Source: a virus
IMG/VR virus record: IMGVR_UViG_3300025632_000056
Span: 1 to 29,754 of that record
DNA length: 29,754 bases
Direction: 5' to 3' (one strand)
Part shown: positions 1,355 to 28,550 of the stretch, one piece after another
Layout of the letters: the number at the start of each line of letters is the position of its first letter
Position numbering within the stretch: the stretch's first letter is position 1
Made by a program: the position numbers and the translations under genes
The notes under the pieces: model-generated
The model's input: only the letters and a program-made list of their open reading frames with translations
Databases searched by the model: none
Told to the model about the DNA's origin: nothing

Positions 1355-1450
1355 TACAAAAAAGATATATTTATAAAATTATTTTATGTGTGATATTATT
1401 GCAGCAGTTACTTTATAATAATTCTAATGTAATTTAATTTAAAATAATAC

Positions 1451-19039: not shown

Positions 19040-21439
19040 ATGACAGTATCAAGCACAACAGTAAAAAATTCCTACTCCGGTAATGGTAGTACAACCGAGT
19101 TTGCTTACACATTTAAAATATTAGTTAATTCAGACTTACAGGTAATTATTAGATCATCTACAGGTACAGAGACAACTAAAACTATAACTACACATTATAC
19201 AGTAGCTGGTGCGGGTGATGCTAGTGGAGGTTCAATAACTTTCACATCTGGCAATATTCCGGCTTCTGGTGAAACAGTTGTTGTTAGAAGGAATGTCCCG
19301 CAAACTCAAGCAATAGATTATATTGCTAATGATCCATTCCCTGCGGAGACACACGAAGAGGGTCTGGATCGTGCTGCTATGGTTGCACAACAATTATCTG
19401 AAGAAGGCGATAGATCAATAAAACTATCAAGAACAAATACAATGAACTCTACAGAGTTTTCTGTAGGTGCTACTGATAGAGCTAGTAAAGTTTTAGGATT
19501 TGATGCTAATGGTGAACTAACAGTTACACAAGAACTTGGTACAAATAGAGGAAACTGGTCATCTGGTACAGATTATAGTGCTAGAGATTTAGTTAAAGAT
19601 ACCTCAACAAATAATATTTTTTTAGTAAACACAGCTCATACATCTTCTGGCTCACAACCTTTAACAACAAACGCAAATTCTGCTAAATATGATTTAATTG
19701 TAGACGCAGCATCAGCAACCAGTTCTGCAGCTACCGCTACAGCTCAAGCAACAATCGCAACTACAAAGGCTGGTGAAGCAGCAACATCTGCATCAACTGC
19801 TACAACAAAAGCAAGTGAAGCAGCTACTTCAGCAAGTAATGCATCAACAAGTGAAACTAATGCGGCAGCATCTTTTGACAGTTTTGATGACAGATATTTA
19901 GGTGCTAAATCTTCTGATCCTTCAGTAGATAATGATGGGGATGCTTTAATAACTGGAGCATTATACTTTAATTCTTCAGACAATGTAATGAAAAATTACA
20001 CAGGTTCTGCTTGGGAAACTTTAAAACCCTCTTCTGTTGAACAAACAAATATTAATACTTTAGCTGCTGCGGATGTAGTAGCTGATATGGCAATACTAGC
20101 TACAGCAGACATTGTAGCAGATATGAATACTTTAGGAACAGCAGACGTTGTATCTGACATGAACACTTTAGCAACTGCTGATGTAGTTTCAGATATGAAT
20201 ACTCTTGCAACTGCAGACATTGTATCTGATATGAACACTCTTGCTACAGCAGATGTAGTAAGTGATATGAATACATTAGGAACTGCGGATGTTGTAACTG
20301 ATATGAATACTTTAGGTACAGCAGATAATGTAACTAATATGGCAACAGTTGCCACAAATATTACAGGAGTTAATTCTTTTGCAGAAAGATATAGAGTTGA
20401 TAGCTCTGATCCTACATCTAGTTTAGATGAGGGAGATCTCGCATTTAATACTACAGATAATAATTTAAAATTTTACAATGGAACAGCTTGGACATCTATT
20501 TCTCCGGGGATAGCAAATGTTGTTGATGATTCTACTCCACAACTAGGTGGTAATTTAGATGTACAAACTAATCAAATTGTAACAACAAGTAATAGAAATG
20601 TTAAAGTTTATCCTAATGGTACAGGTGTTTTAGAAGTAGGTGGTGATGGTTCATCTAATGATGGTACTATTCAATTAAACTGTTCTCAAAATTCACATGG
20701 TGTTAAGATTGCATCACCAGCTCACTCTGCTGGACAATCATATACATTAATTTTACCAACATCAGTTGGATCAGCAAATCAAGTTTTAGCTAGTAATGGT
20801 AATTCTACAAACCAATTATCTTGGATTGATGCAGCAGAAACTAAACCTACTGTAGCAGATGTATCACAAACAATACCACCTGCAACAGCTACAACAATAA
20901 ATATTACAGGAACAAATTTTGTTTCAATACCTACTGTTGAATTTGTTAATGGTTCAACAGGTGCTATTACAAATTCTAATACAGTTTCTTTTACAAATGC
21001 TACTACACTTTCAGTTAATGTAACTTTAGCATCAGGTAATTATTATGTAAGAATAGAAAATCCAGATGGAAATGCTGCAAGATCAACAAACAATATTTTA
21101 ACAGCTTCTACTGCACCATCATTTACAACTGCTGCAGGGTCATTAGGTACAGTTGCAGGAAACTTCTCTGGTACAGTATTTACAGTTGTAGGTTCATCAG
21201 ATAGTGCTATTACTTTTACAGAAACAACAAGTGTTTTAGTTGGAAGTGGTGGTAGTCAAGCTAATTGCAGTTTAGCTTCTAATGGTGTAATAACTACAAG
21301 TGATTTTGGTGGTAGTTCTACAACACCAACTACATACAATTTCACACTTAAAATTACAGATGCTGAAGGTCAGTTTGTAACTAGAGATTTTAGTTTAACT
21401 TCTAGCTTCGGTGCAACAGGTGGAGGACAATTTAACTAA
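19040..21439 (+). CDS. Tail fibre protein (T7 gp17-type N-terminus, modular)
   Basis: 799 aa. Residues 1 to about 140 (NSYSGNGSTTEFAYTFKILV, RRNVPQTQAIDYIANDPFPA, THEEGLDRAAMVAQQLSEEG) match the T7-type fibre N-terminal domain that attaches to the tail nozzle. Next come an Ala/Thr/Ser-rich, probably trimeric segment (225-275), a module at 284-332, eight 12-residue repeats (338-433), a second related module (449-491), and beta-rich C-terminal domains: an IPT/TIG-like region (about 603-687, INITGTNFVSIPTVEFVNGS) and a last Ig-like part. It should recognise the host surface. AAAGG precedes the start by about 9 bases. Confidence 0.9.
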   Translation: MTVSSTTVKNSYSGNGSTTEFAYTFKILVNSDLQVIIRSSTGTETTKTITTHYTVAGAGDASGGSITFTSGNIPASGETVVVRRNVPQTQAIDYIANDPFPAETHEEGLDRAAMVAQQLSEEGDRSIKLSRTNTMNSTEFSVGATDRASKVLGFDANGELTVTQELGTNRGNWSSGTDYSARDLVKDTSTNNIFLVNTAHTSSGSQPLTTNANSAKYDLIVDAASATSSAATATAQATIATTKAGEAATSASTATTKASEAATSASNASTSETNAAASFDSFDDRYLGAKSSDPSVDNDGDALITGALYFNSSDNVMKNYTGSAWETLKPSSVEQTNINTLAAADVVADMAILATADIVADMNTLGTADVVSDMNTLATADVVSDMNTLATADIVSDMNTLATADVVSDMNTLGTADVVTDMNTLGTADNVTNMATVATNITGVNSFAERYRVDSSDPTSSLDEGDLAFNTTDNNLKFYNGTAWTSISPGIANVVDDSTPQLGGNLDVQTNQIVTTSNRNVKVYPNGTGVLEVGGDGSSNDGTIQLNCSQNSHGVKIASPAHSAGQSYTLILPTSVGSANQVLASNGNSTNQLSWIDAAETKPTVADVSQTIPPATATTINITGTNFVSIPTVEFVNGSTGAITNSNTVSFTNATTLSVNVTLASGNYYVRIENPDGNAARSTNNILTASTAPSFTTAAGSLGTVAGNFSGTVFTVVGSSDSAITFTETTSVLVGSGGSQANCSLASNGVITTSDFGGSSTTPTTYNFTLKITDAEGQFVTRDFSLTSSFGATGGGQFN
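20051..20338 (+). repeat. Eight tandem 36-bp repeats coding for 12 residues each
   Basis: Inside the fibre gene, eight in-frame units follow the pattern M-N-T-L-[AG]-T-A-D-[VI]-V-[SAT]-D, starting with INTLAAADVVAD and ending with MNTLGTADNVTN; a ninth degenerate unit (MATVATNITG) follows. The protein sequence is nearly constant while codons vary (GCAACTGCTGAT, GCTACAGCAGAT, GGAACTGCGGAT). Hydrophobic residues recur at fixed places, as expected for a fibrous trimer shaft. Confidence 0.95.
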
Positions 21440-27095: not shown

Positions 27096-27129
27096 AAAAG
27101 GCGACTATTTCTAGCCGCCTTAAATTTTT
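27094..27129. terminator. Bidirectional terminator between convergent genes
   Basis: AAGGCG (27098-27103) pairs with CGCCTT (27116-27121); CTA and TAG extend the stem inside after one mismatch. A-run at 27094-27099 and T-run at 27125-27129 provide U tracts for both directions. It separates the end of the rightward late operon from the convergent leftward gene at 27137. Confidence 0.8.
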
Positions 27130-27136
27130 ATTTAAC

Positions 27137-27406
27137 TTACTCTTGGTCTAAACCTTCAAAGTCTTGACTACGAAACACTTGAAGATTTCCTTTAGATGGT
27201 TTGATTTGATCTTTTGCGTTTAGTGAATGATGTTCAATAGTAAAACGATCTGCTTTTACTACTATCATATTATCACTATCAGCTCTTCCATCTTTAAAGG
27301 GAACTAAAGTTACATGAACATATTTTTCTTTATATGTTTCTGAACCTTTATCTGTATCAGTTGCAATTTCAATCATTACAAATGGATACTTTTTATTCTC
27401 AACCAT
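27137..27406 (-). CDS. Hypothetical protein, 89 aa
   Basis: The frame is open to 27436, but I choose the ATG ending at 27406 because AAAGGA precedes it by 6 bases, and the promoter at 27443-27471 would start RNA near 27436, right at the longer frame's first codon. The product (MVENKKYPFVMIEIATDTDK) is beta-rich with VHVTLVPFKDGRADSDNMIV and an acidic end; no family is recognised. It has its own promoter with repeated sites and ends at a shared terminator, so it is a separately controlled leftward gene. Confidence 0.65.
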   Translation of the reverse strand: MVENKKYPFVMIEIATDTDKGSETYKEKYVHVTLVPFKDGRADSDNMIVVKADRFTIEHHSLNAKDQIKPSKGNLQVFRSQDFEGLDQE

Positions 27407-27442
27407 GTTTTTTCCTTTCTGTTTTTTTGTTGTCATAATATC

Positions 27443-27471
27443 AGTATATACGATTTGGATACATAAGTCAA
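27443..27471 (-). promoter_or_regulatory. Sigma70-like promoter for the 89-aa gene
   Basis: On the minus strand TTGACT (27471-27466), a 17-base spacer and TATACT (27448-27443) form a good sigma70 promoter. The spacer contains one full copy of a 13-base repeat whose second copy lies 25 bases upstream, as for a repressor operator. Confidence 0.65.
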
Positions 27472-27490
27472 TATCTAATTTGGATACATA
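27453..27490. repeat. 13-bp direct repeat overlapping a promoter
   Basis: ATTTGGATACATA occurs at 27453-27465 and at 27478-27490. The first copy fills most of the spacer of the leftward promoter, the second lies just upstream of its -35 box. Period 25 bases. Likely operator sites of a phage regulator. Confidence 0.75.
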
Positions 27491-27503
27491 GTGTCGCAGC
27501 TAA

Positions 27504-27587
27504 TTGTTGTAATTATGTTACACCTGTTGTAATTATGTTACACTTGTTGTAAAATTGCAACAGTTGCAAAAATACAACATTGTTGTA
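27504..27587. repeat. Tandem 20-bp repeats plus two perfect 15-bp palindromes
   Basis: Three units begin at 27504, 27524 and 27544. The first two differ in one base (TTGTTGTAATTATGTTACAC, with C in place of the first T in the second copy); the third diverges after TTGTTGTAA. Two odd-length perfect palindromes follow: TTGCAACAGTTGCAA (27555-27569) and TACAACATTGTTGTA (27573-27587). All share a GTTG[TC]AA half-site. The array fills the gap before the rightward gene at 27599. It looks like an iteron or multi-operator region. Confidence 0.88.
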
Positions 27588-27591
27588 AAAT
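27564..27591 (+). promoter_or_regulatory. Candidate promoter inside the repeat array
   Basis: TTGCAA (27564-27569), 16-base spacer, TAAAAT (27586-27591). The -35 box is half of the first palindrome, and the second palindrome lies in the spacer. RNA would start near 27598, at or next to the ATG at 27599, giving a nearly leaderless message; no ribosome site is seen before that ATG. Confidence 0.4.
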
Positions 27592-27598
27592 TATCACA

Positions 27599-27814
27599 AT
27601 GAAAAAAAAGAAAACATGGGTAAGACCTAAAGAACAATCTTTAATCTGTGGCTACTGCGAGACTTGTAATAAACAATTAATGAGTGATGAAGGTGGCTGG
27701 ATTATTACAGCTAATAAACAGTATTTTTGCCATGATGGTAAGGATGGTAGTTGTTTTGACAACTATTGTGTGTTAAAACTTAAACAACAAAAGGAGAATA
27801 ACCATGTATGGTAA
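27599..27814 (+). CDS. Small Cys/His-rich zinc-ribbon-like protein, 71 aa
   Basis: The product has CGYCETCNKQLM near residue 17-28 and FCHDGKDGSCFDNYC further on (about 43-57), so six Cys and one His are arranged as two clusters, as in treble-clef or zinc-ribbon folds. The N-terminus is very basic (MKKKKTWVRPKEQSLI). It lies just behind the repeat array and could bind DNA there, including its own promoter, but this is inference. No ribosome site precedes the ATG. The stop overlaps the next gene by 11 bases, and AGGAG for that gene is inside it. Confidence 0.7.
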   Translation: MKKKKTWVRPKEQSLICGYCETCNKQLMSDEGGWIITANKQYFCHDGKDGSCFDNYCVLKLKQQKENNHVW

Positions 27815-27911: not shown

Positions 27912-28069
27912 TGCCGGGTTATCACAAAACAAAATCTGGTAAGATGGCTAAAAAAGGTTTGTACTACAATATAAACAAACGTAAGAAAGCTGGTACAAGT
28001 AGAACTAAAAAGAAATCTACTATTACAAAGAAAGCTTACAAGTCTATGTTGTCTGGATTTAAGAAATAG
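27911..28069 (+). CDS. 52-aa very basic protein
   Basis: MPGYHKTKSGKMAKKGLYYN, then INKRKKAGTSRTKKKSTITK and KAYKSMLSGFKK. Strongly basic with conserved-looking aromatic residues; related micro-proteins with the pattern 'K-x-G-K-M-x-K-K-G-L' occur in marine phages as I recall. The start overlaps the previous stop as TAATG. The last 11 bases overlap the end of the convergent DnaA-like gene, with no terminator between, so the two RNAs would be complementary at their ends. Confidence 0.7.
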   Translation: MPGYHKTKSGKMAKKGLYYNINKRKKAGTSRTKKKSTITKKAYKSMLSGFKK

Positions 28070-28550
28070 TTTCTTTTAAATCTTGGTATTCTTGCCAAAT
28101 GCTTTGACCAGCATCCCAAAATCTTCGCTTGTGTTTTTTCATTTCTATTGAATGTAAAACTGTGGTATGATCCTGTCCGAAATATCTACCTATATCTGTA
28201 AGGTTTAAGTTATATTTTTCATACAACATATTGTGAATAATGTTTCTTGCTCTAACTATATCTTGTGTTCTAACCTTACCCAATAAACTTTTTTTGTGTA
28301 CCTCATAACGAACACAAACTCTATTAATAATACTGTCTACAATTCTTGTACTAGGCTTGGCAAATGAGTAACTAATAATTCTTCTTGGCTTATAAAACTC
28401 TGGACTTCTTTTTTTACAATGTATCTTTGCTAACTTGTAGCCATTCTTAAATGCGTTCTTATATATTTTTTTTTCTTTTTTTGACAAATCACGATAGTGT
28501 CCTGCTTTCATAGCAAGTTTTATTTCAGTAAATATTTTATTTTTAGTCAT
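28059..28550 (-). CDS. Stand-alone DnaA domain IV-like DNA-binding protein
   Basis: 163 aa. Residues 70-142 match the DNA-binding domain IV of the bacterial initiator DnaA: a helix with IINRVCVRYEVHKKSLLGK, a basic VRTQDIVRARNIIHNMLYE, and the signature LTDIGRYFGQDHTTVLHSIE (117-136), in which D127-H128-T129-T130 contact the DnaA box in the host protein. One residue of the host GGRDHTT loop is missing. There is no AAA+ ATPase part; residues 1-60 are a Lys-rich unknown segment. It probably binds phage DNA to start replication or control transcription. AGGGG before the ATG supports the start. Confidence 0.88.
   Translation of the reverse strand: MTKNKIFTEIKLAMKAGHYRDLSKKEKKIYKNAFKNGYKLAKIHCKKRSPEFYKPRRIISYSFAKPSTRIVDSIINRVCVRYEVHKKSLLGKVRTQDIVRARNIIHNMLYEKYNLNLTDIGRYFGQDHTTVLHSIEMKKHKRRFWDAGQSIWQEYQDLKETIS

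Follow-up and report, generated by a model that had tools for sequence, protein, structure and literature searches.

The stretch at 27505-27598 of the window (the whole 29,754-base IMG/VR virus record analyzed here) carries tandem repeats and palindromes, and the question it raises is whether these serve as a replication origin or as a multi-site operator, both of which had been offered by a first-pass annotation. Comparison with related phages and with host genomes makes it most likely that they were taken over from the host as a control element and are not an origin.

The phage and its host

The window phage is an HTVC010P-type pelagiphage. The portal protein shares 93% identity with its counterpart in Pelagibacter phage HTVC010P, and neighbouring genes have matches in HTVC010P-type isolates grown on SAR11 hosts; these relatives point to a SAR11-type host. 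Phages of this type are believed to be dependent on the RNA polymerase of their hosts (PMC10504331). The structural genes of the window are on the plus strand and the block containing the DnaA-like gene is on the minus strand. This gene, first noticed for its likeness to DnaA domain IV, is genuine (Table 1) and is standard in the phage group, several isolates carrying the annotation "DNA replication initiation". Elsewhere in the window, a tandem peptide repeat (NTLATADVVSDM, 19996-20355) was found within a tail-fibre-like ORF (19040-21439), and a short GC-richer island (GGCGGGTACACCCCCAGACGCACCCG..., 1950-2060) lies in AT-rich surroundings between the early and late genes.

The repeats form five tandem dyads

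The coordinates and sequences given by the first-pass annotation were correct. Of the three 20-bp units that it described, those at 27504 and 27524 (TTGTTGTAATTATGTTACAC(C/T)) were confirmed, but the one at 27544 shares only TTGTTGTAA with them and then diverges. Both perfect odd-length palindromes, TTGCAACAGTTGCAA (27555-27569) and TACAACATTGTTGTA (27573-27587), are present with their centres 18 bp apart. Direct repeats and palindromes alike belong to a single regular array: the whole stretch consists of five tandem 18-bp dyads of the form TGTTGYA-N4-TRCAACA (O1 to O5, Table 1), with spacings of 20, 20, 17 and 19 bp between neighbouring centres. The first palindrome is the O3/O4 junction and the second the O4/O5 junction. 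In O1, O2 and O5 the deviations fall at two positions of one arm; O1 and O2 can also be read as TGTTGTA-N4-TGTTACA, with half-sites 11 bp apart (OmpR-family sites are direct repeats at 10-11 bp), whereas the host-type dyad described below is inverted.

At up to two mismatches the window contains eight dyad matches, five of which lie inside 94 bp. Shuffled versions of the window contained 1.1 +/- 1.07 matches and none of 100 reached eight, while 40 simulated windows, generated at full length with an order-2 Markov model, never had more than one match per 100-bp stretch. The chance expectation is one to two matches per window and no clusters.

The array is adjoined by the motif TGTCGCA (27492-27498). 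The same motif (ATGTCGCACCT) occurs directly 5' of p71 in the dyad-free promoter versions of L163, L136, L152 and HTVC035P, and also upstream of p99 in L166.

Table 1. Positions of the dyads, the cassette and the associated genes in the window
Feature	Position	Strand	Remarks
Degenerate dyad	1389..1406		TGTGATATTATTGCAGCA, 3 mismatches; 34 bp from TTGACT of the minus-strand early promoter
Inserted cassette	27096..27598		Between DUF6321 gene and p71; missing from 67 distinct relative junctions
p99 intrinsic terminator	27098..27121	minus	AAGGCGGCTAGAAATAGTCGCCTT then TTTT; predicted
p99, cargo gene	27137..27436	minus	Inside cassette
p99 promoter -10 box	27443..27448	minus	TATACT; 17-bp spacer
p99 promoter -35 box	27466..27471	minus	TTGACT
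Dyad O1	27505..27522		TGTTGTAATTATGTTACA, 2 mismatches; 33 bp from p99 -35 box
Dyad O2	27525..27542		Sequence of O1, 2 mismatches
Dyad O3	27545..27562		TGTTGTAAAATTGCAACA, 0 mismatches; same class as host porin sites
Dyad O4	27562..27579		AGTTGCAAAAATACAACA, 1 mismatch; present in 3-4 copies before p99 in L164/L165
Dyad O5	27581..27598		TGTTGTAAAATTATCACA, 2 mismatches; ends one base before p71 start codon
p71, Cys/His-rich protein gene	27599..27814	plus	Divergent from p99
p163, DnaA-like protein gene	28059-28550	minus	Minus-strand block; domain IV only, PF08299, E=3e-19

The array belongs to an accessory cassette carrying p99

The array is part of a cassette of about 500 bp that is present in the window and in five relative contigs (L003, L004, L005, L020 and L023, one of them near-identical to the window). 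Its order is terminator, p99 on the minus strand, TTGACT-17-TATACT promoter and array. In 67 distinct junctions from relatives the DUF6321 gene runs up to or into p71, the gene for the 71-aa protein, with a gap of -6 to 4 nt as against about 507-527 nt with the cassette, and none of these array-free junctions (0/67) holds a dyad at up to two mismatches.

The true start of p99 is probably the ATG at 27406, giving 89 aa, which lies behind AAAGGA and coincides with the start of the homologues. The promoter and terminator of p99 were called from consensus matches, by which the minus-strand promoter is a good one. Promoter-like hexamers in the region are otherwise about as frequent as expected by chance (12 found, 9.2 expected). 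For p71, the nearest promoter-like sequence is covered by O4 and O5. Searches with p99 gave zero matches in Pfam, PHROG and PDB, and the gene was found neither in the bacterial genomes searched nor in the named phage collection; the viral collection contains at least 10 p99 loci. With its predicted promoter and terminator and its position as an extra gene between genes adjacent in relatives, the cassette fits the description of a phage moron.

Two further observations concern the flanks of the array. A second direct repeat, ATTTGGATACATA (27446-27465 and 27471-27490, 25 bp apart), lies partly over and partly beside the p99 promoter and may be a second operator; a related sequence, TATCCAAAT, lies in the promoter spacer of another cargo gene (L127). 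On the p71 side (27589-27599), the cassette allele of p71 has no clear ribosome-binding site and has TAAAAT 7 bases before its ATG, so its transcript is possibly leaderless.

The array or a relative of it was found upstream of p99 in three lineages, whose genes on the opposite side are unrelated. Besides the window lineage, in which the window has two copies of the 20-bp unit and L003, L020 and L023 have three, contigs L164 and L165 carry three or four copies of AGTTGCAAAAATACAACA upstream of p99 homologues in a different genome context, where the gene on the other side of the array is on the same strand. In L166, diverged units of about 20 bp (TGTGGTAAAAATGTCACAC, 3 mismatches) precede p99. 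These sequences associate the array with p99. It is not obligatory for p99, since the gene lacks a clear dyad array in L163 and L167. The p99 gene of L163 stands behind another promoter that has no dyads, indicating that promoter and cargo recombine as modules. Other minus-strand cargo genes occupy the DUF6321-p71 junction in L127, L136, L152 and HTVC035P (gp28, L177:2500-2916), marking it as an insertion hotspot; cargo genes at this junction are closed by a similar hairpin, GGCGACCATTTCTGATCGCC.

The dyad precedes porin genes in the host group

Among 118 evenly drawn host-family genomes, the perfect dyad was found in 29, at about one per genome, and the reversed control pattern gave none. All 29 dyad loci lie beside a porin or outer-membrane-protein gene (27 loci, assigned with Pfam apart from a few judged outer-membrane-like by eye only) or beside a DUF3576-type gene (2 loci, L437 and L444). 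One genome with two dyads has one before each of two porin paralogues. In Pelagibacteraceae, many of which were among the matches listed in an exact scan for TGTTGCAAAAATACAACA with one genome per species, the dyad is mostly 100-120 bp upstream of the porin start codon, in a gap common to the porin gene and a divergent DUF3576 lipoprotein gene. These two genes form a conserved pair in SAR11 (L423 and most of L430-L457).

The 18-mer also precedes porin genes in Beta- and Gammaproteobacteria. In Nitrosomonadales and Methylotenera the genes concerned are of the Porin_4 and Porin_O_P families, and in SAR116 it stands before one Porin_4 gene. Some of the matches outside Proteobacteria are due to chance. 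In Methylotenera/Methylopumilus (L306, L307, L316 and L320) the dyad lies upstream of a Pho-box-like motif, CTGTCATCAAA.TGTCA, both standing before a phosphate-selective porin gene (Porin_O_P in L307).

The phage array matches the host dyad in sequence, O3 perfectly and the other four dyads within two mismatches, and is located upstream of p99 and p71 instead of a porin gene. The phage dyads may function as the host site does and yet not be porin operators.

Dyads and promoter spacing in other phages

Dyads were also found near the early genes of cultured pelagiphages: three in HTVC010P (0-2 mismatches), two in HTVC034P (1 mismatch each) and one each in HTVC203P and Skadi-1 (2 mismatches), HTVC203P having a weaker neighbour as well. 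None was found in the corresponding early region of HTVC024P and HTVC035P. Between the -35 box and the dyad closest to it there are 33 bp in HTVC010P, 34 bp at the early promoter of the window, 33 bp at p99 and 44 bp in HTVC034P, the last being about one helical turn above 33.

Among the matches listed in other IMG/VR contigs, 30% of the sites of the unit have a very strong sigma-70 promoter nearby, compared with 2% of random positions. The sequence TGTTGCAAAAATACAACA is intergenic in many IMG/VR contigs (L186-L304), often 8-20 bp upstream of near-consensus TTGACA/TATAAT, and the element is therefore wider than the pelagiphages.

A proposed host-type operator for p99

The array is probably a multi-copy host-type operator that places the moron gene p99 under the control of a host envelope or porin regulator. 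The multi-site operator, proposed as the second option in the first-pass annotation, is thus supported. Its suggestion of a new phage-specific recognition sequence is not supported, since the dyad occurs at host porin genes and, in other pelagiphages, close to early genes.

A dimeric host DNA-binding protein, putatively an envelope or porin regulator, would bind the dyads, possibly cooperatively at neighbouring ones because their centres are 17-20 bp apart. Its target would be the p99 promoter beyond O1, and it might also control p71 on the other side, given that O4 and O5 cover the promoter-like sequence there. With the dyads placed before the -35 box and the helical phase constant, activation from upstream seems a better fit than simple blocking. 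We infer that one host protein binds all of these sites and regulates p99, and likewise the sign of this control.

SAR11 retains several response regulators of the OmpR family, which are candidates for this role, and the five SAR11 two-component pairs include ChvGI, EssRS and PhoBR (PMC10746171). An OmpR-family protein was found in 116 of the 118 host-group genomes, a condition that is necessary, not sufficient, for an OmpR-family site. A CRP/FNR regulator, suggested by the dyad geometry, was rejected, as only one of the 118 genomes had a protein over the HTH_Crp_2 cut-off.

Alternative explanations

Tandem host-type operators could instead act as a decoy that titrates the host porin regulator and alters porin levels, for example excluding superinfecting phages or changing nutrient uptake, with control of p99 secondary. 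The multiple tandem copies and their variation in number would agree with this, and since host sites number about one per genome, a few dozen phage genomes would outnumber them. However, the dyads stand at a fixed place, 33-34 bp from the -35 box, which a pure sponge does not need; other phages have a single copy or few, and the array stays with p99. We regard this explanation as unlikely. The same doubt applies to a combined role, in which the array would be both regulatory decoy and promoter element, titration of the porin regulator reshaping the cell surface while the same regulator drives early and accessory genes.

There is a slimmer chance that the array serves a regulator made by the phage itself, which could be p99, p71 or the DnaA-like protein, as its operator and resembles the host site by accident. 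Operators beside small genes of unknown function are often autoregulatory, and p99 and the array co-occur in three lineages, but host porin genes have the same dyad, and so do phages that lack p99. No DNA-binding domain was found in p99 or p71 with Pfam, though the structure model of p99 is poor (pLDDT 58, too weak for structure search), and the DnaA-like protein persists in relatives that lack the array.

The first reading given to this locus, an iteron-type origin recognized by the DnaA domain IV-like protein, is highly improbable in spite of the tandem repeats, the AT-rich DNA and the DnaA domain IV gene 0.5 kb away, and was rejected because the array is absent from close relatives with the same DnaA-like gene: 29 of the 67 array-free junctions retain the 71-aa gene together with a DnaA-like protein of at least 90% identity. 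On the sequence side this is the outcome that the first-pass annotation had named as refuting its proposal. Among the matches listed, no comparable dyad cluster was found outside p99-bearing loci, other DnaA-bearing relatives included. The sequence TTATCCACA was not found in the window, the site class is tied to porins and promoters, and the cumulative GC skew comes close to its maximum at the array and has its minimum at the opposite end, a pattern confounded by gene strand.

An RNA hairpin or terminator is not favoured, as many dyad sites lie upstream of a -35 box and the inner Y/R positions show no base-pair covariation. One C and one T half-site, giving C-A or G-U, are combined in 18 of 30 host sites, and this variation without pairing argues for protein-DNA contacts rather than an RNA stem. 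Single phage copies in L252 and L265 have the look of a terminator stem. Tandem 20-bp sites occur at the transposon ends of Tn7-like elements; transposon ends were rejected here, the cassette having no transposase and its junction no obvious target duplication.

Significance

The conserved dyad before porin genes of SAR11, Beta- and Gammaproteobacteria is apparently unreported: in the literature searched, neither a report of it nor relevant work on SAR11 or betaproteobacterial porin regulation was found. SAR11 are the most abundant marine bacteria, and their phages carry this porin-type site of the host near early genes and before an accessory gene. As these phages are thought to rely on host RNA polymerase, a host regulator reading phage promoters would link the state of the host envelope with infection. 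The dyad could be used directly as bait for the SAR11 porin regulator.

Comparison with known systems

Porin regulation by the OmpR family (EnvZ/OmpR, and ChvGI and EssRS in Alphaproteobacteria) likewise involves a multi-site region upstream of porin promoters. The known sites of two alphaproteobacterial regulators differ from the dyad. Caulobacter ChvI recognizes a TTGC/GCAA dyad with N3 spacing (PMC9731502); its half-site is similar, but the spacing in the phage and host dyad is TTGY-N6-RCAA, and a ChvI site was rejected. Rhodobacter CenR binds the direct repeat TGA-N8-TGA (PMC9275681), whereas the dyad here is inverted.

Iteron origins share with the array tandem repeats of about 20 bp and AT-rich DNA. 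The array differs from them in that it is not conserved with the initiator-like gene, sits in an accessory cassette and has a unit matching a porin-linked promoter element.

The Pho boxes of cyanophages are read by the host PhoB and, as is proposed here, place the site of a host regulator before a phage accessory gene. The present site is an inverted, porin-linked dyad arranged as a tandem array of five.

Morons, which occur in temperate and lytic phages, are genes with their own promoter and terminator between two phage genes. The p99 gene resembles them in its own sigma-70 promoter and terminator, its opposite strand and its presence or absence between genes adjacent in relatives. It differs in carrying a host-type operator array of five dyads and in a promoter module that has been swapped independently of the cargo, as in L163.
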